Part shown: positions 2,573-20,002 of the stretch, piece by piece
How the letters are laid out: each line of letters starts with the position of its first letter
Numbering within the stretch: position 1 is the first letter of the stretch
Origin: Candidatus Nanopelagicales bacterium
Lineage (GTDB): Bacteria; Actinomycetota; Actinomycetes; S36-B12
Direction: 5' to 3'
Length of the DNA stretch: 43,712 nucleotides
NCBI GenBank assembly: GCA_030726915.1
Contig: JANRCR010000013.1
Location: forward strand, 1-43,712
Position numbers and translations under genes: made by a program
The notes under the pieces: generated by a model
What the model saw: the letters and a program-made list of their open reading frames with translations, nothing else
The model's database searches: none
What the model was told of the DNA's origin: nothing

Positions 2573-3135
2573 GTAGTGATGCTAGGCCCCTCGTCATTAT
2601 CGAGCGAACGCTGATCCGCGGGGGAGTCATCCGCCGAGGGGGTTTCGGGTCGGAGGCGTTGGGCTATGTCGTCGGCGAGATCGCGCAACTCAGATCGCAG
2701 ATAGTCGCGAGTCGCCACGTCACCCAGTGCGACACGCAATGCCGCGATCTCACGGGCGAGATACTCGGTATCCGCCACCAGACGATCCGTCATCTCGCGG
2801 TCCTCGAGGTACTGCACCTTGTCGCGGTCCGACTGCCGATTCTGGGCGAGCAGGATGAGAGGAGCCGCGTAGGACGCTTGGAGGGAGAGCATCAGTGTCA
2901 AGAAGATGAAGGGGTAGGGGTCGGGTTTGAGGTCGTCCGGGGCGAAGATGTTCCATAGCAGCCACGCGATGATGGCCGCGGTCATCCAGGCAATGAACCT
3001 CCATGACCCGATGAAGCGCGCAATGCGCTCGCTCATCCGGCCCCACTGCTCCGGGTCGTAGGACGGACCGCGGATCCGCCCGCGGTCGAGGGGTTGATCC
3101 ATGCGCAGTTCTGGACGGCGACCCGAGGGGCTCAT
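2569..3135 (-). CDS. DUF1003 family membrane protein
   Basis: This 188-residue protein has a basic N-terminus, then two closely spaced transmembrane helices (about residues 48-66 and 77-97), then a charged, probably coiled-coil cytoplasmic region ending in an acidic tail. The helix pair and the following LLAQNRQS motif match DUF1003, a family of unknown biochemical function common in Actinobacteria. It overlaps its neighbours by four bases on each side: the MgtE_N/CBS gene upstream and mrp downstream. It may therefore be the membrane partner of the soluble MgtE-like protein, but that is inference from gene order. Confidence 0.85.
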   Translation of the reverse strand: MSPSGRRPELRMDQPLDRGRIRGPSYDPEQWGRMSERIARFIGSWRFIAWMTAAIIAWLLWNIFAPDDLKPDPYPFIFLTLMLSLQASYAAPLILLAQNRQSDRDKVQYLEDREMTDRLVADTEYLAREIAALRVALGDVATRDYLRSELRDLADDIAQRLRPETPSADDSPADQRSLDNDEGPSITT

Positions 3136-9393: not shown

Positions 9394-10080
9394 ATGGCCT
9401 CAACTGATGTGGGCGTGGATGATGCCTACCGCGCTGCTGTCGTTGACCTTCTTGGCGTATTGGCGTACGGCGAACTCATGGCTTTTGAGCGGCTGGCCGC
9501 TGACGCAGCGCTCGCGCCGACCATTGATGATGAGGCCCAGTTGGCCGGCATGGCGGCGGCGGAGTTTCGCCACTTCACCCGACTACGCGACCGGCTGGTT
9601 GAGTTGGGTGCAGATCCCGCCCAGGCCATGGCTCCCTTCCGGGCACCCCTGGAGAGTTTCCATGAAATGACCGCCCCGAGTGACTGGCTCGAGGGGCTCG
9701 TCAAGGCGTACGTCGGCGACGGCATTGGTGTGGACTTCTATCGCGAGATCGCCGAATTCCTCGACCCGCAGACGCGGGCATTGGTCCTGGAGGTCTGTGA
9801 AGATCTGGGGCAGTCGGCATTTGTTGTCGATCGGGTGCGCGCTGCGATCGTCGCGGATCCGCGAGTCGAGGGGCGGCTTGCACTGTGGGCTCGTCGCCTC
9901 GTGGGTGAAGCTCTCTCCCAAGCGCAGCATGTGGCAGCCGAGAGGGAGGCGTTGACCGCTCTCCTCATCGGCGGGGCGGGCGGACACGGTGGCATGGACA
10001 TGACGGCCATTGGTGATCTGCTCACCCGACTGACCGATGAGCATTCGCGTCGGATGCAGGCGCTCGGCCTGTCATCGTGA
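9394..10080 (+). CDS. Ferritin-like fold protein, MiaE-like (PF13794 type)
   Basis: This 228-residue protein is mostly helical. It has the four-helix-bundle spacing of Glu and His residues seen in ferritin-like proteins of the actinobacterial MiaE-like family (GELMAFER, AAAEFRHF, then ALVLEVCEDLGQSAF and EALSQAQH). True MiaE is a di-iron tRNA hydroxylase. In this actinobacterial branch the substrate is not established, so the name shows fold only. It starts with a leaderless-type promoter. The next gene, DUF3107, is on the opposite strand and converges on it. Confidence 0.8.
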   Translation: MASTDVGVDDAYRAAVVDLLGVLAYGELMAFERLAADAALAPTIDDEAQLAGMAAAEFRHFTRLRDRLVELGADPAQAMAPFRAPLESFHEMTAPSDWLEGLVKAYVGDGIGVDFYREIAEFLDPQTRALVLEVCEDLGQSAFVVDRVRAAIVADPRVEGRLALWARRLVGEALSQAQHVAAEREALTALLIGGAGGHGGMDMTAIGDLLTRLTDEHSRRMQALGLSS

Positions 10081-10115
10081 TGGTGGTCGGCCTGGCGGGG
10101 CCCCGCGTCGAGGGG

Positions 10116-10340
10116 CTAGGAGTTGCCGAAGCCGACGCGCCGAACGCTGAGGGGGCTGATCTCAACGTAGGCAAGGCGATCCGCGGGGATGATGACGCGC
10201 CGGCCCTTGTCGTCTTCGAGGGTGAGCAGGCCGCCGTTGGCGATCGCAGCCTCAACAGCGGCCGAAATGTCATCCAGAGCATCAGCGCTCTCTAAAACAA
10301 TTTCGCGAGCGGTCTGCTGTACGCCGATCCTGATCTCCAC
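10116..10340 (-). CDS. DUF3107 family protein
   Basis: This 74-residue protein begins at a GTG with a near-perfect Shine-Dalgarno, AGGAGGT, at 10345-10351. The sequence matches DUF3107 (MEIRIGVQQTAREI, then IPADRLAYVEI), a small beta-rich family found almost only in Actinobacteria and of unknown function. It lies directly downstream of the TetR gene on the same strand, 40 bases away. This DUF3107/TetR/hydrolase neighbourhood recurs in many actinobacteria near moeZ. Confidence 0.88.
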   Translation of the reverse strand: MEIRIGVQQTAREIVLESADALDDISAAVEAAIANGGLLTLEDDKGRRVIIPADRLAYVEISPLSVRRVGFGNS

Positions 10341-10380
10341 TGTGACCTCCTAGGTGTTCCAGGCTAACGCGCGGTTGACG

Positions 10381-11019
10381 CTAGGCCGTGGGCGGGTGAG
10401 ACAGCGGGAAGCCTCGGATGCCACGCCAGCCCAGCCCGGCGATGAGATCCACCGCGGCCTGTCGCGGGGTGTGCGAGGTTGCGCGAAGCCACCGTCGTGC
10501 GGCGATCTGCGCCATGCCCAGGAGGCCGGATGCCAGGAGTTCTGCCTCGCCGGATGCGAGCCCGGTATCTTCGGCGATGACTCGACTGAGCATGAGTGAG
10601 CATGCGAAGTCGGCTGACTCCACCCGCTCTCGCACGGCGGGTTCGTTGGTGAGGTCGCTCTCAAAGACGAGCCGGTAGGCACCGTTGGGGTCATCAACAA
10701 AGGCGAAGTAGGCCGACACCGCACCATGGACGCGCTGCTTGTTGTCGTGGGTTGATTCAAGGGCCGTGCGCAGCGTGTCGAGGAGCACCGCGATTCCCTC
10801 ATCGAGGAGAGCGAGATAAAGATCAAGCTTGCCGGGGAAGTGTTGGTAGAGAACGGGCTTACTGACACCGGCGCAATCAGCAATGTCATCCATGGCCGCT
10901 GTGTGATACCCCTGGGCAACGAAGACTTCAAGTGCCGCGCGAAGCACCTGCGCTCGCCGCTCCTCACGCGGTAGCCGAGTCGCGGTATCGGCTCGGCGCG
11001 CGTCATCTGCCACGGTCAC
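10381..11019 (-). CDS. TetR/AcrR family transcriptional regulator
   Basis: This 212-residue protein has an N-terminal TetR DNA-binding domain (about residues 20-68) with the helix-turn-helix MDDIADCAGVSKPVLYQHF, followed by an all-helical ligand-binding/dimer domain. Such proteins are usually ligand-released repressors. The GTG start has TAGCAT six bases upstream, consistent with leaderless transcription. It is divergent from the alpha/beta hydrolase gene at 11090, 70 bases away, so it may control that gene or itself. The ligand is unknown. Confidence 0.92.
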   Translation of the reverse strand: MTVADDARRADTATRLPREERRAQVLRAALEVFVAQGYHTAAMDDIADCAGVSKPVLYQHFPGKLDLYLALLDEGIAVLLDTLRTALESTHDNKQRVHGAVSAYFAFVDDPNGAYRLVFESDLTNEPAVRERVESADFACSLMLSRVIAEDTGLASGEAELLASGLLGMAQIAARRWLRATSHTPRQAAVDLIAGLGWRGIRGFPLSHPPTA

Positions 11020-11025
11020 CCATTC

Positions 11026-11031
11026 ATGCTA
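11026..11031 (-). promoter_or_regulatory. -10 hexamer TAGCAT of a leaderless TetR transcript
   Basis: On the minus strand TAGCAT ends six bases before the GTG at 11019. No Shine-Dalgarno is seen. Confidence 0.5.
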
Positions 11032-11089
11032 GTCCCCGTGCCTCACGCCCGGCCAGGCGCGAGGACCACGCCCGTGGTCTCATGGGGGC

Positions 11090-12016
11090 ATGAGCGACAC
11101 GGTCGCACGGGTGACTCCGGCGCAGCGATGGACCCTGCCGCGTGGAGAGATTGTGGTGCGTGCGCGACAGGCGGATCCCCGACGAGATGTCGAGGCCGCT
11201 GTCTTCGTGCACGGGCTGGGCGGCTCGACGTTGAACTGGGTGTCGCTCGTGGCCGAGCTCGATGACAATCTTGATTGGGTGTCTGTCGACCTGCCGGGGT
11301 TCGGCGGCTCGCCCCCACCCCGTGACGGTGACTATTCCCCTCGAGGTCATGCCCGCGCCGTCATCGGCGTCATCGAGGAAGTGCAGCGACGGCGTGGTCT
11401 CAGCAGGCCGATCCACCTCGTGGGCAATTCACTGGGAGGGGCGGTTGCATTGCAGGTGACGGCGGCGCGCCCGGACCTGGTGGCCGGTCTGACTCTGGTG
11501 TCACCAGCATTGCCGAATCTGACGCTGGGCCGGGGCAATGCCCATCTGCCCGTGGTGGCTCTCCCGGGAGTTGGCGAGTCTCTTGTGGGTCGCTATGCCC
11601 GTGTCCCTGCAGCGCAGCGCGTCGCGGCGATCCTGGAGGCCTGCACGGTCGACGATCAACGAGTCCCGGACGACATTCGGCAGGCACTCATCCAGGAGAC
11701 CGAGTCGCGAGACCTCCTGCCGTATGCCCACGACGCCTTTCTGTCGTCCCTGCGCGGGCTGCTTGCGACGTACGCCGATCGCGGGTCGCGCCGGCCGTGG
11801 CGCCTAGCACGGCAGGTGCGCCAGCCCGTTCTGGCGATCTATGGCGAGGACGACGTCCTCGTCGATGCCCGCGGTGCGGCACGAGCGGCACGTGAGTTCC
11901 CTGATGCCGAAGTGGTGCTCCTCGACGACTGTGGCCATGTGGCGCAGATGGAGCATCCCGATGTCGTGGCTGATCTGTGGCTAGACAGATTCGCCCGCGT
12001 GACCTCGGCCATTTAG
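11090..12016 (+). CDS. Alpha/beta hydrolase
   Basis: This 308-residue protein has the alpha/beta-hydrolase fold: the oxyanion motif VFVHGLGGS (38-46), the nucleophile elbow GNSLGG with Ser114, an acid in YGEDDVLVD near residue 270 and the catalytic His in CGHVAQMEHP near 290. There is no signal peptide. The substrate could be an ester, lactone or peroxide and cannot be read from sequence. It is divergent from the TetR gene. A 9-bp hairpin follows it before the permease gene. Confidence 0.9.
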   Translation: MSDTVARVTPAQRWTLPRGEIVVRARQADPRRDVEAAVFVHGLGGSTLNWVSLVAELDDNLDWVSVDLPGFGGSPPPRDGDYSPRGHARAVIGVIEEVQRRRGLSRPIHLVGNSLGGAVALQVTAARPDLVAGLTLVSPALPNLTLGRGNAHLPVVALPGVGESLVGRYARVPAAQRVAAILEACTVDDQRVPDDIRQALIQETESRDLLPYAHDAFLSSLRGLLATYADRGSRRPWRLARQVRQPVLAIYGEDDVLVDARGAARAAREFPDAEVVLLDDCGHVAQMEHPDVVADLWLDRFARVTSAI

Positions 12017-12040
12017 CGGATAGCGCCCCGTCCTGTCCCT

Positions 12041-12062
12041 ACCCTGCCCTCAGGGGCAGGGT
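12041..12062 (+). terminator. Hairpin after alpha/beta hydrolase
   Basis: ACCCTGCCC (12041-12049) and GGGCAGGGT (12054-12062) form a perfect 9-bp GC-rich stem with a TCAG loop. It lies 25 bases after the hydrolase stop and before the permease. There is no T-tract, so it may be a Rho-assisted or actinobacterial-type terminator. Confidence 0.45.
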
Positions 12063-12093
12063 CCCTTCGCCCTGCAGACCTCGAGGAGGTGCG

Positions 12094-13653
12094 GTGGACA
12101 AGAACATGTCGGTTTCCGGCGTGCAATATACGCACGCGGGAGCGGAGTACTTCGAGAAGCGCGGACTCAAGCGCTACGCCGGAGCCGGAGCGCTCTGGGG
12201 ATTGGGTGTCGCGGCGGTCATTTCCGGGGATTTCTCCGGCTGGAACTTCGGCATCGGCAACGCTGGCTGGGGCGGCATGCTCATTGCCACTCTCGTCATC
12301 GGCCTGATGTACGTGCTCATGATCTACAGCATCGCGGAGATGAGTGCGGCGATGCCGCACACCGGTGGCGCCTATTCGTTCGCCCGTTCCGCCATGGGCC
12401 CTTGGGGAGGGTTCATCACCGGATTTGCGGAGACGGTCGAATACGTCATCACGACCGCGGTGGTGGGCACCTTCGCGGCTCTCTACGCCGACGCCATTTT
12501 CGTAGAGCTCTTTGACATCTCTTTGCCGATCCTCCTCTGGGTCGTCATCATCTATGTGATTTTCGTGGCTCTCAATACCGCGGGCGCGGCGGCGTCCTTC
12601 CGATTCGCCTTTGTCATCGCCATCATCTCCCTGGGGGTCCTGGCGATCTTCTTCGTCTCGGCTCTCTTCTCGGGGAAGTTCAGCGTCGACAACCTTTTCG
12701 ACATCGTGCCGGAGGCGGGGGGAAGCACCTTCCTGCCCTACGGGTTCCTCGGGATCTTCCTGGCTCTTCCCTTCGCCATCTGGTTCTTCCTGGGCATTGA
12801 GGAGCTTCCTCTCGCAGCCGAGGAGACCCACGACCCGGCCAAGGACATCCCACGAGGCTCCATCGCCGGCATGTTCACGCTGCTTGTCACAGCCCTGCTG
12901 GTCCTCATTCTCAATCCCGGCGTGCTGGGAGCCGCCGCGATCTCGGAGAGCGGCGAACCGATCCTTGACGGTTTCCGTGCCATATTCCCGAACAGTGATA
13001 TCGCGGCCCTGCTGTCGCTTATGGCTCTTGCCGGACTCATCGCGTCCTTCCAGGGCATCATGTTCGCCGCAGGGCGCAATGTCTACTCGCTCTCCCGTGC
13101 GGGGTACTACCCGAAGTTCCTATCGCTCACGGGTGCGCGCAAGACGCCCTACGTCGCACTCATCGCGAGTGCCGTGGTGGGCGTCGGGCTCATCTTCGGC
13201 CTCGGCGCCGTCGCGTACGGCGGGGAAGAGGCACCGTATGTCAATGCGGCGAATGCATTGCTGCTCATCGCGGTGTTCGGTGCGGTGATCGCCTACATCC
13301 TCCAGATGGTCGCCTTCCTCATCCTGCGCCGGAAGTTGCCCAATGTGTCGCGTCCCTACCGCAGCCCGGTGGGCATCGTGGGTGCCCTCATCGCGGGGAT
13401 CATCGCCCTGGTCACGCTCATCCTCATGCCCTTCAACGCGGATTACCGGGCGGTCGTGGTGTGGGTGGCGGTCGTCTACGTGGTCGGACTCCTGCTCTTC
13501 GCGATCTTCGGTCGAAAGCGACTGGTGCTTTCGCCGGAGGAGGAGTACGCCGTCTCGGGCGGCGTCCACGGGCATCCTGAGTCGGAGGGCTACGACGTCG
13601 TCGAGACCCTTGAGGAGTCAGGCGCGGAGGAGTTTTTCCCACCCAAGGAATGA
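12094..13653 (+). CDS. APC-superfamily amino acid/ethanolamine permease
   Basis: This 519-residue protein has about 12 hydrophobic segments and no soluble domain besides a ~45-residue acidic C-terminal tail. The N-terminal region (GLGVAAVISGDFSGWNFG, MPHTGGAYSFARSAMGPWGG) closely resembles the ethanolamine permease branch of the APC superfamily. It should import a small amine or amino acid with protons. The GTG at 12094 is preceded by GAGGAGGT; an ATG at 12106 is possible. It is followed in order by a gamma-glutamyl-amine synthetase, an aldehyde dehydrogenase and an SDR, so it probably feeds that pathway. A strong hairpin separates it from the synthetase. Confidence 0.87.
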   Translation: MDKNMSVSGVQYTHAGAEYFEKRGLKRYAGAGALWGLGVAAVISGDFSGWNFGIGNAGWGGMLIATLVIGLMYVLMIYSIAEMSAAMPHTGGAYSFARSAMGPWGGFITGFAETVEYVITTAVVGTFAALYADAIFVELFDISLPILLWVVIIYVIFVALNTAGAAASFRFAFVIAIISLGVLAIFFVSALFSGKFSVDNLFDIVPEAGGSTFLPYGFLGIFLALPFAIWFFLGIEELPLAAEETHDPAKDIPRGSIAGMFTLLVTALLVLILNPGVLGAAAISESGEPILDGFRAIFPNSDIAALLSLMALAGLIASFQGIMFAAGRNVYSLSRAGYYPKFLSLTGARKTPYVALIASAVVGVGLIFGLGAVAYGGEEAPYVNAANALLLIAVFGAVIAYILQMVAFLILRRKLPNVSRPYRSPVGIVGALIAGIIALVTLILMPFNADYRAVVVWVAVVYVVGLLLFAIFGRKRLVLSPEEEYAVSGGVHGHPESEGYDVVETLEESGAEEFFPPKE

Positions 13654-13669
13654 CCCACGGATCCTGAGT

Positions 13670-13718
13670 AAGGTCCGGGGCGAGGGGTCAACCCTCGCCC
13701 CGGACCTTTTCCGTCCGG
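13670..13718 (+). terminator. Attenuator-like hairpin between permease and synthetase genes
   Basis: A perfect 17-bp stem is formed by 13670-13686 and 13692-13708 around a GTCAA loop, followed by TT (a run of four T at 13707-13710). A third segment, GTCCGG at 13713-13718, repeats part of the left arm and can pair with CCGGAC (13700-13705) of the right arm, which would break the main stem. The element ends 26 bases before the synthetase start. It can be a plain terminator or an antitermination switch. Confidence 0.65.
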
Positions 13719-13744
13719 ATTCGTGCTCGATACGGGAGGTCGTC

Positions 13745-15109
13745 ATGGCTCGTCCGGTGCCCCTGGACGTCGACACCCTGCGGCGTGAGGTCGACGAAGG
13801 CCTCATCGACACGGTGGTCGTCGGCATCACGGACATGCAGGGCCGGATGCAGGGCAAGCGGATCCACGCGGACCACTTCGTCCATGACACGCTCGCCCAT
13901 GGCACGGAGGGTTGCAACTACCTCCTCGCGGTGGACATCGACATGAACACCGTCTCGGGCTACGCCATGTCGTCGTGGGATTCAGGCTACGGCGACATGG
14001 TGATGCGACCGGATCTGACCACCCTGCATCGCATCCCGTGGCAGGAGGGAGCTGTCGGAGTCCTCTGCGACGTCCTCCGGGAGGACGGCTCAGACGTCGT
14101 CGCGTCACCCCGCCAGGTGCTCAAGCGGCAGACGGCGCGACTGGCTGATGCGGGGATGGCGGCGTACGTCGGTACGGAACTCGAGTTCATCGTCTTCCTC
14201 GACAGTTACGAGGAGGCGTGGGAGGCCGGCTACCGCGATCTCACGCCCGCCAACCTCTACAACGTTGACTACTCCATCCTCGGTGGCGCTCGAGTCGAGC
14301 CGCTGCTGCGGCGTATCCGCCTGGGCATGGCCGGGGCGGGACTCGAGGTGGAAAGCGCCAAGGGCGAGTGCAACTTCGGCCAGCATGAGATCGCCTTCAA
14401 GTACAACGAGGCGGTCGTCTCCTGCGATCGCCACACGATCTACAAGACGGGTGCCAAGGAGATCGCGGCGCAGGAGGATGTCTCGCTCACGTTCATGGCC
14501 AAGTACAACGAGCGCGAGGGCAACTCCTGCCACATCCACCTTTCCTTCCGCGGGCTCGACGGTTCGATGGTGATGGCCGACGATGCCGCCGCAGACGGCA
14601 TGTCCGCGCTCGGTCGGTCCTTCATCGCCGGCCAACTTGCCCACATGGAGGAGCTCACGCTGCTCTTCGCCCCCCAGATCAACTCCTACAAGCGCTACGT
14701 CGAGGGCTCCTTCGCGCCGACCGCGATCAAATGGGGTCGCGACAATCGCACGTGCGCACTGCGTCTCGTCGGCCATGGTGCCTCGTTGCGCCTGGAGAAT
14801 CGCGTCCCGGGGGGCGACGTCAACCCCTACCTCGCGACCGCCGGCATCATCGCGGCGGGACTCGACGGCATTGAGCGGGGTCTGGAGCTCGAGCCGGCCT
14901 TCGAAGGTAATGCCTATGTCGCCGATGCAACCCGTGTGCCGGACAGCCTCGCCCGGGCGGTGCAGCTCTGGGAGGAGTCGGACTGGGTGCGTCAGACCTT
15001 CGGCGAGGAGGTCCAGGCCCACTACGCCAGGATGGGGCGCGTGGAGCTGGAGGCGTTCGGCCGTGACGTGACGGACTGGGAGCGCTACCGGGGGTTCGAG
15101 CGACTGTGA
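13745..15109 (+). CDS. Glutamine synthetase-family gamma-glutamyl-amine synthetase (GlnA4/PuuA-like)
   Basis: This 454-residue protein has the glutamine-synthetase N-terminal beta-grasp and C-terminal catalytic domains. Visible motifs are the metal-binding GTELEF, ECNFGQHEI, GNSCHIHLSF, KWGRDNRTCALRL and ENRVPGGDVNPYL. True glutamine synthetases use ammonium and carry variants of these motifs. The divergence and the neighbouring permease, dehydrogenases and C26 hydrolase point to ligation of glutamate to an amine, as in PuuA (putrescine) or the Streptomyces GlnA4 type (ethanolamine). No amine oxidase is present, so an amino alcohol fits better than a polyamine. The ATG has GGGAGG five bases upstream. 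Its stop overlaps the aldehyde dehydrogenase start. Confidence 0.88.
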   Translation: MARPVPLDVDTLRREVDEGLIDTVVVGITDMQGRMQGKRIHADHFVHDTLAHGTEGCNYLLAVDIDMNTVSGYAMSSWDSGYGDMVMRPDLTTLHRIPWQEGAVGVLCDVLREDGSDVVASPRQVLKRQTARLADAGMAAYVGTELEFIVFLDSYEEAWEAGYRDLTPANLYNVDYSILGGARVEPLLRRIRLGMAGAGLEVESAKGECNFGQHEIAFKYNEAVVSCDRHTIYKTGAKEIAAQEDVSLTFMAKYNEREGNSCHIHLSFRGLDGSMVMADDAAADGMSALGRSFIAGQLAHMEELTLLFAPQINSYKRYVEGSFAPTAIKWGRDNRTCALRLVGHGASLRLENRVPGGDVNPYLATAGIIAAGLDGIERGLELEPAFEGNAYVADATRVPDSLARAVQLWEESDWVRQTFGEEVQAHYARMGRVELEAFGRDVTDWERYRGFERL

Positions 15110-16458
15110 CTACCGTCATCAGCCCCGTCACCGGGGTGCAGATCGCTGACATCGACCCGACTCCCGTGGAGGAGGTCGACGCACTCATCGCACGCGCGCA
15201 CGATGCCTTCCCTGCGTGGCGTGCCGTGTCGCCGGGTGACCGGGCCCGATTACTCCGCCGCTTCAGTCAGGTAGTCGAGGACCACATCGAGGAGCTTGCC
15301 CAACTAGAGGTCGCCAACTCCGGCCACACCATCGGCAATGCGCGCTGGGAGGCGGGCAACGTCCGCGACGTGCTGGCCTACTACGCCGGCGCTCCGGAGC
15401 GCCTCTTCGGCCGCCAGATCCCCGTGGCCGGCGGCGTCGACATGACCTTCCACGAGCCCATCGGCGTCGTGGGCATCATCGTCCCCTGGAACTTCCCCAT
15501 GCCGATCGCAGTCTGGGGATTCGCACCCGCATTGGCCGCGGGATGCACGGTCGTGCTGAAGCCCGCCGAGGTCACGCCGCTCACGGCGATCCGCCTCGGA
15601 GAGCTCGCCCTCGAGGCGGGAATCCCCGAGGGAGTCTTCACCGTTATCCCGGGCAAGGGGTCGGTGGTCGGTGACCGCTTCGTCACTCATGCTCTCGTAC
15701 GCAAGGTCGTCTTCACCGGATCGACCGAGGTGGGCGAGCAGATCATGGCCGGCTGTGCGCCGCAGATCAAGCGCCTGACGCTCGAACTCGGTGGCAAGAG
15801 CGCCAACATCGTCTTCGCTGACGCTGACCTTGAGCGCGCGGCGGCGGCCGCGCCGTACGGCGTCTTCGACAACGCCGGGCAGGACTGCTGCGCGCGCTCG
15901 CGCATCCTTGTGGAGCGCTCGGTCTTCGATCGCTTCATGGGCTTGCTCGAGCCGGCCGTGGCGGGAGTGCGCGTGGAGGACCCCGCGCTCGACTCCTCCG
16001 AGATGGGGCCGCTCATCACCGCGGCTCACCGCGAGAGTGTCGCGGCGTACATCGACGACTCCCAGGTCGCCTTTCGTGGCAGGTGCCCCGACGGACCGGG
16101 TTGGTGGTTCCCGCCCACGGTGATCGTGCCGTCGTCGGAGAGCGATCGCGCGTACCGCGAGGAGATCTTCGGCCCGGTCGTCGCCGTCATGCCCTTCGAG
16201 GACGAAGCCGATGCCATCCGTATGGCCAACGACTCTGACTTCGGACTCTCGGGCTCCATCTGGAGCCGCGACATCGGTCGCGCGCTGCGTGTCACGCGCG
16301 GCGTGGAGTCTGGCAACCTGTCGGTCAACTCGCACTCCTCGGTGCGCTACTGGACGCCCTTCGGAGGTTTCAAGCGCTCCGGTCTCGGCCGCGAACTCGG
16401 CCCGGATGCACCCATGGCATTCACCGAGACCAAGAACGTCTTCATCGCCACCGACTGA
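15106..16458 (+). CDS. NAD(P)-dependent aldehyde dehydrogenase
   Basis: This 450-residue enzyme carries the aldehyde dehydrogenase hallmarks PWNFP (Asn129), FTGSTEVG, the general-base Glu227 in LELGGKS, and the catalytic Cys261 in GQDCCARSR. EIFGPVV and PFGGFKRSG are near the C-terminus. It is slightly short at the N-terminus compared with ~480-500-residue relatives, with no core motif missing. The GTG start overlaps the synthetase TGA (GTGA), indicating coupled translation and a shared pathway. The expected substrate is a gamma-glutamyl-aminoaldehyde, giving the carboxylate. It is 20 bases upstream of the SDR gene. Confidence 0.92.
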   Translation: MTTVISPVTGVQIADIDPTPVEEVDALIARAHDAFPAWRAVSPGDRARLLRRFSQVVEDHIEELAQLEVANSGHTIGNARWEAGNVRDVLAYYAGAPERLFGRQIPVAGGVDMTFHEPIGVVGIIVPWNFPMPIAVWGFAPALAAGCTVVLKPAEVTPLTAIRLGELALEAGIPEGVFTVIPGKGSVVGDRFVTHALVRKVVFTGSTEVGEQIMAGCAPQIKRLTLELGGKSANIVFADADLERAAAAAPYGVFDNAGQDCCARSRILVERSVFDRFMGLLEPAVAGVRVEDPALDSSEMGPLITAAHRESVAAYIDDSQVAFRGRCPDGPGWWFPPTVIVPSSESDRAYREEIFGPVVAVMPFEDEADAIRMANDSDFGLSGSIWSRDIGRALRVTRGVESGNLSVNSHSSVRYWTPFGGFKRSGLGRELGPDAPMAFTETKNVFIATD

Positions 16459-16460
16459 TC

Positions 16461-16476
16461 CTTACGGAGGAGTAAG
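16461..16476 (+). promoter_or_regulatory. Shine-Dalgarno in the loop of a small hairpin
   Basis: CTTAC (16461-16465) and GTAAG (16472-16476) flank GGAGGA, the ribosome-binding site of the SDR gene. The ribosome-binding site thus sits in a hairpin loop with a 5-bp stem. The stem is weak and may have no effect. Confidence 0.3.
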
Positions 16477-16478
16477 CC

Positions 16479-17258
16479 ATGTCCGATGCTGTCTGCCGTC
16501 GCCTTGTCGGCCGAACCGCTCTCATCACCGGGGGAGCCAGCGGTATCGGCTTTGCCTCGGCCCAGCGATTGGCCAGTGAAGGAGCGAATGTCGTCATTGC
16601 CGATATGGACGAGTCGGCGGGTGAGGTCGCGGCACGCGAGGTGGGGGGCACGTTCGTACGCGCGGATGTGACGTCTCCGGAGGACAACGAGCGCATGTAC
16701 AGGGTGGCCGTTGAGATCTACGGGTCCATCGACATCGCTTTCCATAACGCGGGGATCTCACCCCCGGATGATGACTCCATCCTCGACACCGGATTAGAGG
16801 CGTGGAAGCGCGTCCAGGATGTCAATCTCACCTCCGTCTACCTCGGATGCAAGGCGGTGCTGCCCTACATGCTGAAGCAGGGCCGCGGATCCATCATCAA
16901 TGTCGCGTCGTTTGTCGCCACGATGGGCGCGGCGACGTCGCAGATCTCCTACACCGCATCCAAGGGTGGGGTGCTGTCGATGTCGCGTGAGCTCGGTGTG
17001 CAATTTGCGCGCCAGGGTGTGCGCGTCAACGCGATCTCACCCGGGCCGGTGAACACCCCCTTGCTCATGGAGTTGTTTGCAAGCGACCCGGAGCGTGCGG
17101 CCCGACGCTACGTGCACATCCCCTTCGGCCGCTTCGGTGAGCCCGAGGAGATCGCGGCTGCCGTGGCCTTCCTCGCCTCGGACGACTCATCCTTCATCAC
17201 CGCGTCGAACTTCCTCGTGGACGGCGGGATCTCCGGCGCCTACGTCACCCCGCTCTAG
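16479..17258 (+). CDS. SDR family NAD(P)-dependent oxidoreductase
   Basis: This 259-residue classical short-chain dehydrogenase has the cofactor motif TGGASGIG (17-24), NAG at 90-92, the catalytic Ser144, Tyr158 and Lys162 (YTASK), and PGPVNTPL. The Asp after the second beta strand (ADMD) suggests NAD(H) preference. It is the last gene of the permease-synthetase-aldehyde dehydrogenase run and converges on the AIM24 gene six bases away. If the imported amine is ethanolamine, this enzyme could oxidise the hydroxyl of gamma-glutamyl-ethanolamide to the aldehyde that the preceding enzyme uses; that is inferred from order. Confidence 0.9.
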   Translation: MSDAVCRRLVGRTALITGGASGIGFASAQRLASEGANVVIADMDESAGEVAAREVGGTFVRADVTSPEDNERMYRVAVEIYGSIDIAFHNAGISPPDDDSILDTGLEAWKRVQDVNLTSVYLGCKAVLPYMLKQGRGSIINVASFVATMGAATSQISYTASKGGVLSMSRELGVQFARQGVRVNAISPGPVNTPLLMELFASDPERAARRYVHIPFGRFGEPEEIAAAVAFLASDDSSFITASNFLVDGGISGAYVTPL

Positions 17259-17263
17259 CAGGA

Positions 17264-17944
17264 CTAGCTGCGACTGAAGGGCAGTACGGCGGTCAGCCAG
17301 GTGACCAAGCCGTTGGGGTTGCGCGACTGGGTCCACACGAGCCCCGGACCGGTGATCTCCACGACGATTCCCTCGCCGGACTTCAGGGACTTCATGATCC
17401 CGCCCGTGGTGCGGGCCTGCATAGCGATGTAGGCGTCGTAGGCCACGAGATGACCGGAGTCCACCACCAAGCGCTCGCCCTCGTGGAGCGCGTGCTGGTC
17501 GAGCGCGCCGTACGACGCCACGACGACCTTGCCCGCGCCGTCGAAGCGCGAGACGAAGCCGCCCTCGCCGCCGAAGAGGTTGTTGGCACCGCCCCACTTC
17601 GTGTCCATCGTGAGGCTCTGCTCGTTGGCGAGCCATGCCCCGCGCGTCACGGCCAGTGGTCGCTCGGGTGTGGAGTCGATGACGGTGATGTCACCCGGGA
17701 GGATCGCGGCGACATCGACCCAGGCACCGTCGACGGAGCTGGTGTACGACGTGACGAAGAAGGAGTTGCCGCCGAGGGCGCTGCGGCCCAGCGACTTCAG
17801 GAATCCTCCTTCCATCTTGGCGTCCAGGGTCATGCCGTCGCTCATCGCGGCCATAGCGCCGGATTCCACCTTGACGTGCTCACCGGCGACGAGCGTGCAG
17901 CGGGCGAGGGCGAATGAAGGCCCGTGACGGACATCGATCTGCAT
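17264..17944 (-). CDS. AIM24 family protein (TIGR00266/DUF124)
   Basis: This 226-residue protein starts at the ATG at 17944, preceded by AAAGGAG. It consists of beta-rich, glycine-spaced repeats (LVAGEHVKVESGAM, GGFLKSLGRSALGG, VTSYTS) typical of the AIM24/TIGR00266 family. The bacterial function is unknown; the fold is a trimeric beta-helix-like barrel. There is no signal peptide. It lies 52 bases downstream of the C26 hydrolase gene on the same strand and may be co-transcribed with it. A role in amine catabolism is not established. Confidence 0.87.
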   Translation of the reverse strand: MQIDVRHGPSFALARCTLVAGEHVKVESGAMAAMSDGMTLDAKMEGGFLKSLGRSALGGNSFFVTSYTSSVDGAWVDVAAILPGDITVIDSTPERPLAVTRGAWLANEQSLTMDTKWGGANNLFGGEGGFVSRFDGAGKVVVASYGALDQHALHEGERLVVDSGHLVAYDAYIAMQARTTGGIMKSLKSGEGIVVEITGPGLVWTQSRNPNGLVTWLTAVLPFSRS

Positions 17945-17996
17945 GGGGACTCCTTTGCTTGGGCGCGGGTCGCAGCGACGGCCTGCGCGAGGGCTG

Positions 17997-18701
17997 CTAG
18001 TCGGAGGCTGCCGCAATCAGCGCGCGGAAGAGGGGTAATTCGAGGATTCGCCGGTCAGGGTGCTCGGGATGCCACTGCACGCCGACGGCGAAGCGAGACT
18101 CCGGAGCCTCGAGCACCTCGACGAGGCCATCTTGAGTCCACCCCGTGGGCACGAGGGAGCCGGGATCGGCGATGCCCTGATGGTGTGACGAGTTCGTGCT
18201 CAGGGTCGGCACCCCATAGATGTCGGCGATGCGCGAGCCGGGAGCGAAGCGCACGTCATGCTCGGTGAAGGAGCCCGGCACCTCGCGATGGACAAGCCCG
18301 TAGCCCGCGTCGGGCAGGTCTTGAATCAGTGATCCGCCCTGGGCGATCGCCATGACCTGCATCCCGCGGCAGATCCCCAGGAGCGGCAGGTCGCGCGCCC
18401 GGGCTCCCCGACAGAGCAGCAGCTCGCTGGCATCGCGCTCCACGCGGGGGGCGTCCACCGTGGGGTGCGGCTCGGCGCCGTAATTCGCCGGGCCTACGTC
18501 GGCACCGCCGATGAGGATGAGCCCGTCGATGCGGTCGAGGACGTCGTCGTCGTTGGAGTCCGGGGGCAGCAGGACTGGTCGGCCGCCAGCGTCACGCACG
18601 GCATCGACGTACCACTCGTGCAGCAGTGCCGCCGGCACCTCCCAGGCGCCCCAGCGAGCAGGCTCGACGTAGGTCGACAGACCGATGACGGGACGCCCCA
18701 T
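17997..18701 (-). CDS. Class C26 gamma-glutamyl hydrolase (PuuD-like class I glutamine amidotransferase)
   Basis: This 234-residue protein has the class I amidotransferase triad: Cys111 in LGICRGMQ, and His211 and Glu213 in QWHPE. Upstream it shows LILIGGADVGPANYG, matching PuuD-type gamma-glutamyl-GABA hydrolases. It should release free glutamate from a gamma-glutamylated product. It sits opposite the synthetase/dehydrogenase operon and would complete a gamma-glutamylation cycle. The start is the ATG at 18701; a weak GAGACT hexamer lies six bases upstream. It is divergent from the MoeZ gene. Confidence 0.9.
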   Translation of the reverse strand: MGRPVIGLSTYVEPARWGAWEVPAALLHEWYVDAVRDAGGRPVLLPPDSNDDDVLDRIDGLILIGGADVGPANYGAEPHPTVDAPRVERDASELLLCRGARARDLPLLGICRGMQVMAIAQGGSLIQDLPDAGYGLVHREVPGSFTEHDVRFAPGSRIADIYGVPTLSTNSSHHQGIADPGSLVPTGWTQDGLVEVLEAPESRFAVGVQWHPEHPDRRILELPLFRALIAAASD

Positions 18702-18803
18702 GGCCCTAGTCTCCCGGTGCCGGAGGGGAATAGCCGCGTGGGTACCGTTGTTAGGTCAGTTCCATTGCGCTTAAGCATTGATTGCCGTGAACCAAGGAGA
18801 AGT

Positions 18804-19994
18804 ATGTCCCTGCCGCCGCTCGTCGAGCCCGCCGCGGAACTCTCGGTCGATGAGGTGCGGCGCTATAGCCGGCACCTCATCATCCCCGACGTGGGAATGA
18901 CGGGTCAGAAACGTCTGAAGAATGCCCGGGTCCTGTGCGTTGGTGCCGGCGGCCTGGGAAGCCCGGCGCTGATGTACCTCGCAGCAGCCGGTGTGGGCAC
19001 GCTGGGAATTGTGGAATTCGACGTGGTGGACGAGTCGAATCTGCAGCGCCAGATCATCCACGGGCAGAGTGACATCGGTCGATCCAAGGCGGAGAGCGCT
19101 CGTGACTCCGTCAAGGAGATCAATCCCTACGTCGACGTCATCCTGCACGAGGAACGCCTTGACTCCTCCAATGTCATGGAGATCTTTGCGCAATACGACC
19201 TCATCGTGGACGGCACCGACAACTTCGCGACCCGCTATCTCGTGAACGATGCATGTGTCCTGCTCGGCAAGCCCTACGTCTGGGGATCCATCTACCGGTT
19301 CGACGGTCAGGCGAGTGACTTTTGGGCAGAGCACGGCCCCTGCTATCGCTGCCTCTACCCCGAGCCCCCTCCTCCCGGCATGGTCCCGTCCTGCGCCGAG
19401 GGCGGCGTGCTCGGAGTGCTCTGCGCGAGCATCGGCTCGATTCAGGTGACCGAGGCCATCAAACTCATCACCGGAGTAGGCGACTCCCTCATCGGCAGAC
19501 TCAAGGTCTACGACGCACTCGAAATGGACTACCGCGAGGTGAAGATCCGCAAGGATCCCAACTGCGCGGTATGCGGCCCCAACGCCACCGTGACTGAGCT
19601 CATCGACTACGACGCCTTCTGCGGCACCATTTCCACTGAGGCTGCCGAGGCTGCGCGTGATTCGACCATCTCCGTCCACGACCTCAAGGAGATGCTCGAT
19701 GAGCGCGATCGCGGTGAGCGCGACTTCATGCTGATCGATGTTCGCGAACCCGTCGAATGGGAGATTGTTGCGATCGACGGGGCCGTGCTCATCCCCAAGG
19801 GAGAGTTTCTCGACGGTTCCGCACTGGAGAGACTGCCGCATGACAAGCCCATCGTCTTGCACTGCAAGGTCGGCGGCCGGTCGGCGGAAGTTCTGGCGGT
19901 GCTCAAAGGAGCAGGCTTCTCCGATGCCGTGCATGTCGGCGGGGGCATCAACGCGTGGACACTCCAGATCGAACCTGACAAGCCCTACTACTGA
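18804..19994 (+). CDS. moeZ: MoeZ-type adenylyltransferase/sulfurtransferase (ThiF-like E1 plus rhodanese)
   Basis: This 396-residue protein has an E1-like domain (about 15-270) with the nucleotide-binding GAGGLGS (47-53), ESNLQRQIIHG and the zinc-ligand pairs CYRC and CAVC. A rhodanese domain (about 285-390) follows, with persulfide-forming Cys354 in HCKVGGRS. MoeZ adenylates and then thiocarboxylates small sulfur-carrier proteins for molybdopterin, thiamine or cysteine pathways. The ATG at 18804 is preceded by AAGGAGA. The frame stays open upstream to 18465, but that part is antisense to the hydrolase gene and not protein-like. No sulfur carrier is encoded in the window. Confidence 0.93.
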   Translation: MSLPPLVEPAAELSVDEVRRYSRHLIIPDVGMTGQKRLKNARVLCVGAGGLGSPALMYLAAAGVGTLGIVEFDVVDESNLQRQIIHGQSDIGRSKAESARDSVKEINPYVDVILHEERLDSSNVMEIFAQYDLIVDGTDNFATRYLVNDACVLLGKPYVWGSIYRFDGQASDFWAEHGPCYRCLYPEPPPPGMVPSCAEGGVLGVLCASIGSIQVTEAIKLITGVGDSLIGRLKVYDALEMDYREVKIRKDPNCAVCGPNATVTELIDYDAFCGTISTEAAEAARDSTISVHDLKEMLDERDRGERDFMLIDVREPVEWEIVAIDGAVLIPKGEFLDGSALERLPHDKPIVLHCKVGGRSAEVLAVLKGAGFSDAVHVGGGINAWTLQIEPDKPYY

Positions 19995-20002
19995 GCCTCC
20001 GC

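Follow-up and report, generated by a model that had tools for sequence, protein, structure and literature searches.

A conserved terminator-like hairpin at the 3' end of an amine permease gene in an order of actinobacteria

Results

Gene order at the locus

The window analysed here is a whole contig of 43.7 kb (43,712 nt) from a genome of 2.2 Mb, and the features discussed below are collected in Table 1. The amine permease scores 383.2 bits against the TIGR00908 ethanolamine permease model, just above the curated cut-off of 381.75. It is followed by a glutamine-synthetase-like gene whose product contains Pfam PF00120 and lies under the cut-offs of all five NCBIfam models that it matched. Downstream of the aldehyde dehydrogenase gene come an SDR gene and then, on the other strand, a class-I amidotransferase/C26 hydrolase gene, while the regulator encoded at 10381-11019 is a TetR protein, nearest to FasR. 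The likeness of the cluster to the Streptomyces GlnA4 gene set suggests that its substrate is ethanolamine. The alignments of the synthetase and the aldehyde dehydrogenase also abut in the other nine congener loci (L084-L092); in non-congener loci with both genes the spacing is 9-171 nt, apart from two outliers at 688 and 1186 nt.

Table 1. Features of the permease-synthetase locus, and a tRNA gene at a related locus
Feature	Position	Strand	Basis or remark
TACCCT, -10-like (TANNNT) element	12040..12045	+	about 50 nt before the permease gene; TAC[CT]CT aligned and conserved in four congeneric loci
Ethanolamine/amine permease gene	12094..13653	+	start GTG 12094 or ATG 12106; TIGR00908 match
Hairpin left arm AAGGTCCGGGGCGAGGG	13670..13686	+	sequence, folding, congener alignment
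Hairpin loop GTCAA	13687..13691	+	sequence, folding
Hairpin right arm CCCTCGCCCCGGACCTT	13692..13708	+	sequence, folding, congener alignment
Short T run TTTT, two T paired in the stem	13707..13710	+	sequence
GTCCGG, proposed third arm	13713..13718	+	in the sequence; 1 of 12 loci; most likely chance
GGGAGG, probable ribosome-binding site of the synthetase-like gene	13734..13739	+	all 12 loci have an SD-like motif past the hairpin
Glutamine-synthetase-like gene, candidate GlnA4-type gamma-glutamyl-amine synthetase	13745..15109	+	Pfam PF00120
Aldehyde dehydrogenase gene	15106..16458	+	4-nt overlap with the synthetase-like gene
tRNA-Gln	2994-3067 of locus L109	-	genome G013

A perfect hairpin follows the permease gene

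The gap between the permease and the synthetase-like gene (13654-13744) contains a stem of 17 Watson-Crick pairs without a mismatch, exactly as an earlier sequence-only reading of this DNA had described it; the stem lies 16 nt past the permease stop codon and 36 nt ahead of the synthetase-like gene. The computed fold of the hairpin alone has an energy of -39.7 kcal/mol, the probabilities of its 17 pairs are 0.93-1.00, and the 121 nt around it are 5.0 s.d. more stable than dinucleotide shuffles, none of the 200 shuffles matching them. No other perfect stem of at least 11 bp (loop of 3-10) occurs anywhere in the window, and ten first-order Markov simulations of the window, the type of simulation also applied to the orthologue hairpins and synthetase controls described below, yielded no perfect stem above 13 bp. 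The stem is far beyond chance. The minimum-energy fold also has an outer helix (13656-13664 with 13717-13725), which was set aside as it was not evident by eye in congeners.

When gene 3' ends were ranked, the hairpin came first among 247 in a 276-kb sample of the same genome, the genes being called with a home-made ORF caller. The permease-end hairpin of genome G006 was sixth of 240 gene ends. Because five G006 ends score higher than the permease end, this type of hairpin is not special to the permease gene; it is uncommon in these genomes but not confined to that gene. The background from genome G040 is weak, since the ORF caller gave 130 gene ends in 200 kb and the G040 permease end was absent among those printed. 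A REP-type or other repeated element was ruled out because the hairpin has no second genomic copy: a search of the genome (G000) at E<=0.001 matched this locus alone, together with its own reverse complement. Comparison of 13400-14000 with Rfam found no family at gathering score. Six matches with E up to 1, all sub-gathering, were rejected; they comprised three miRNA models, two sRNA models on the opposite strand and one viral element.

The hairpin accompanies the permease gene within the order

Permease orthologues were sought at E<=1e-120 in 166 genomes of the order, and 19 were found, the window's own counted. In all 19, a hairpin with 12-21 pairs (G-U pairs and one mismatch allowed) stands 5-34 nt past the permease stop, and each of these hairpins was matched by none or one of 100 first-order Markov simulations. 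Stem sequences diverge widely among genera, and the gene that follows also varies, being the synthetase in 12 loci, another codirectional gene in five and a convergent gene in two (the codirectional neighbour at L123 was assigned by its likeness to that of L122, an antisense ORF ranking higher there). Controls were drawn from 30 synthetase loci. Upstream of synthetase genes without an adjacent permease a hairpin was found in none of 21 regions, after omission of L092, which was too short, and of eight permease-linked loci including L109; downstream of the synthetase none was found in 29 regions, one too-short locus being omitted. Because every one of the 19 permease ends has a hairpin, the neighbours vary and both sets of controls are empty, we take the hairpin to be a 3'-end element of the permease gene. 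The sequence-only reading had set the element exactly at the junction of uptake and ligation genes. This placement does not hold across the order, where the hairpin follows the permease whatever the next gene, and the one hairpin ahead of a synthetase that lacks an intact permease neighbour stands beside a permease remnant (see below).

Outside the order, 394 genomes were sampled and 27 had a match. Hairpins at the 1-in-100 level were present in five of 23 orthologues and missing from 18; a sixth reached 2 in 100. On this comparison the hairpin is a steady feature of the permease gene within the order, not of the whole class. At L171 and L172 a PuuD-like gene was seen by eye close behind.

Pairing in congeners and natural losses

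Alignment of four congeners revealed changes on both sides of five of the 17 stem pairs, and 88.2% of cells pair, compared with 32-59% when slid. The covariation score was reached by one of 500 shuffles; two of the five measures of the test were weak (reached by 17 and 250 of 500 shuffles), and two of the four congeners have lost most of the outer four stem pairs. It should be emphasized that, because only four sequences are compared, the covariation carries modest weight.

Two further congeners, G009 and G002, encode synthetases that are 95% and 94% identical, respectively, and have no permease match at 1e-120 in genomes that are 79% and 87% complete. Neither displays a hairpin that passes the test, the G002 fold having a weaker stem of about eight pairs. 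In G013 (locus L109) roughly the last 16 codons are all that is left of the permease, and this remnant lies 5 nt beyond a tRNA-Gln gene. The hairpin is intact ahead of the synthetase; its stem is identical to that of G025, with changes confined to the loop. This is the one case at odds with a pure permease link, and may reflect either recent loss of the permease or a hairpin that still serves the synthetase.

A U-poor tail and little room for a second promoter

The tail of the hairpin, TTCCGTCC, does not form a canonical intrinsic-terminator U-tract of about 8-10 nt, and a consensus scan (at least five T in 8 nt) omits the hairpin. There are three T in the 8 nt past the stem, and one to four across the 12 permease-synthetase loci. 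The element is thus U-poor, although its three U in 8 nt place it marginally within the U-rich class as PMC8269248, in its available text, divides U-rich from U-lack terminators (at 3 U in 8 nt). The other gene-end hairpins of the sampled genomes are likewise mostly U-poor, with 0-4 T in 8 nt and a single one with six. Because only three T follow the stem within 8 nt, termination may be weak.

It could be argued that nothing terminates here at all, and that the hairpin is purely an intercistronic decay barrier: an endonuclease would cut downstream, the stem would halt 3'-5' exonucleases and the permease segment would be stabilised. The scarcity of U after the stem (1-4 T in 8 nt) and the position of the hairpin directly behind the upstream cistron are consistent with such a barrier, and the shielding of an upstream segment by 3' structure has been modelled (PMC5927463, available text). 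Two of the 19 hairpins, however, precede a convergent gene, for which a plain terminator is the simpler explanation, and at one of these, L131, a longer T run is found at the hairpin end. We consider a barrier of this kind unlikely.

Most of the 12 loci leave little room past the hairpin for a promoter serving the synthetase on its own, and this possibility was rejected: in 11 of them the projected synthetase start lies just 18-43 nt beyond the hairpin, and the interval contains no TANNNT. The exception is L125, which has 102 nt and two TANNNT in this interval. Ahead of the permease gene, TACCCT is a possible promoter -10 element that would mark the start of the transcription unit. A consensus promoter scan reported no + strand site in 10000-20000, TACCCT being unlisted, and its counts are near the shuffled expectation. 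A 9-bp palindrome (12041-12062) overlaps TACCCT. Because the short hairpin-synthetase interval contains no TANNNT and a -10-like element stands before the permease, transcription of the synthetase probably depends on read-through, or else on a permease-internal promoter invisible to the scan.

The third arm is most likely a chance match

Beyond the stem itself, the earlier reading had proposed a three-arm attenuator, in which GTCCGG pairs with CCGGAC of the right arm to give a mutually exclusive fold, opening the terminator in response to a small molecule such as an amine, a protein or translation. The hexamer is indeed present and complementary to the right arm. It occurs downstream of the hairpin, however, in only one of the 12 permease-synthetase gaps of the order and is missing from those of the three other congeners; the conservation in relatives on which the proposal had been staked is therefore wanting in 11 of 12 homologous gaps. 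When 20,000 random 36-nt stretches of the window were drawn, 16% shared at least 6 nt with the left arm. A fold in which GTCCGG is made to pair with 13700-13705 is 14.7 kcal/mol less favourable, its pairs having probabilities no higher than about 5e-10, and in simulated folding of the growing transcript the whole stem is present by 13708, ahead of third-arm synthesis. An attenuator needs its antiterminator before or during the formation of the terminator. Because the candidate arm lies 3' of the hairpin, GTCCGG does not exist at the moment of the termination decision and is made after the structure that it was proposed to prevent. The Rfam search, which returned no family at gathering score, likewise speaks against a switch of this design, and a three-arm attenuator is scarcely credible; the hexamer is most likely a chance match with no role. 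The suggestion that the hairpin could end transcription after the permease has fared better, its conservation and covariation being in its favour, but the three-arm switch has not survived, and the element looks like an ordinary terminator-type structure rather than a switch.

Base composition of the arms

The 5' arm is G-rich, with more G than C, in 15 of the 19 permease-end hairpins (L113-L131). G outnumbers C in the left arm of 16 of 24 strong gene-end hairpins, comprising ten of ten in G006, four of six in G000 and two of eight in G040, with the permease ends of G000 and G006 included. A translational device could be built from such an arm if it mimicked the ribosome-binding site of the synthetase, in which case the C/U-rich right arm, freed by occupation of the left arm, could mask that site. 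Besides the prevalence of G-rich left arms at permease loci, the recurrence of 5-7-nt left-arm stretches in the synthetase leader, for example AGGGAGG at L117 and GGAGG at L120 and L124, is in keeping with this idea. In contrast, the hairpin is also found where the next gene is convergent or not a synthetase, G-rich left arms are common at other gene ends, and the right arm would hardly be free given the high pair probabilities of the stem. A translational role is thus very improbable.

Discussion

We propose that the hairpin is probably a U-poor, leaky actinobacterial terminator that also protects the 3' end of the permease mRNA inside an operon. RNA polymerase starting at the permease promoter would stop at the hairpin part of the time, and the stem would shield the 3' ends produced by termination or by RNase trimming. 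The remaining polymerases would continue past it and transcribe the genes for the synthetase, the aldehyde dehydrogenase and the SDR, with the outcome that permease mRNA exceeds enzyme mRNA. The stem, its conserved position and pairing, its tie to the permease and not the synthetase, and the scant room for a separate synthetase promoter behind it in most loci are observed; that transcription terminates there, how efficiently it does so, and that the stem protects the 3' end and shifts the gene ratio are inferences. The intercistronic decay barrier is the main rival to the leaky terminator, and both readings predict more permease than synthetase mRNA. Some observations sit less comfortably with leaky termination. 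The hairpin is found in only five of 23 orthologues outside the order, and G013 keeps it beside a remnant permease. In addition, the ends within transcription units of S. clavuligerus are mostly weakly structured, hairpin-type ends being less frequent there than at the ends of units (PMC8269248, available text), so that a stable hairpin would not be the usual internal end.

A further reading is that of a regulated polarity element dedicated to the permease gene, in which growth conditions, for example through ribosome occupancy of the permease end or the activity of Rho/NusG, set the extent of read-through. We think this rather improbable. If true, such an element would balance uptake against gamma-glutamylation capacity, and the stem would be under selection at this single gene end throughout the order even as its bases change.

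This study describes a terminator-like stem that is kept at the 3' end of one gene across a bacterial order despite wide change in its sequence and its neighbours, and in doing so provides evidence of a comparative kind for function in actinobacteria. The case also carries a warning, as a brief duplication of one arm of a GC-rich stem does not in itself point to a switch.

Leader attenuators of the trp, T-box and riboswitch types have a stem ahead of a metabolic gene, as is the case here; they differ in that the candidate arm of the present element is made after the stem, and that no Rfam family was found at gathering score. Intercistronic hairpins act as decay barriers in the malE-malF (REP) and puf operon mRNAs. 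The present stem resembles these in standing behind an upstream transport gene in a probable polycistronic unit, where it would favour the upstream mRNA. In contrast with the malE-malF REP, it has no second genomic copy. The structures of the differential-decay operons treated in PMC5927463 are, in its available text, mostly within coding regions, unlike the hairpin described here. With respect to gene content, the locus resembles the Streptomyces GlnA4 ethanolamine cluster of the SCO1610-SCO1615 type, which likewise combines a ligase, an aldehyde dehydrogenase, an SDR, an amine permease and a glutamine amidotransferase-type hydrolase (PMC6529630); neither "terminator" nor "hairpin" appears as a word in that paper's main text.

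The closest comparison is with the terminators mapped by Term-seq in Streptomyces, where stable hairpins followed by few U (3-4 U in 10 nt) show graded read-through (PMC12207403, PMC8269248, available text of both); the hairpin here has 3 U in 10 nt. Partial read-through is documented for those U-poor terminators, and the present hairpin would be expected to share it. Compared with the terminators of S. clavuligerus, it belongs to a lineage of freshwater-type actinobacteria and has a G-rich left arm, the reverse of the base trend in PMC8269248, where C is enriched near -30 and G near -10. It nevertheless shares with the U-poor (I-shaped) actinobacterial terminators of these reports a long GC-rich stem, a short loop, few U and a position soon after the stop codon.
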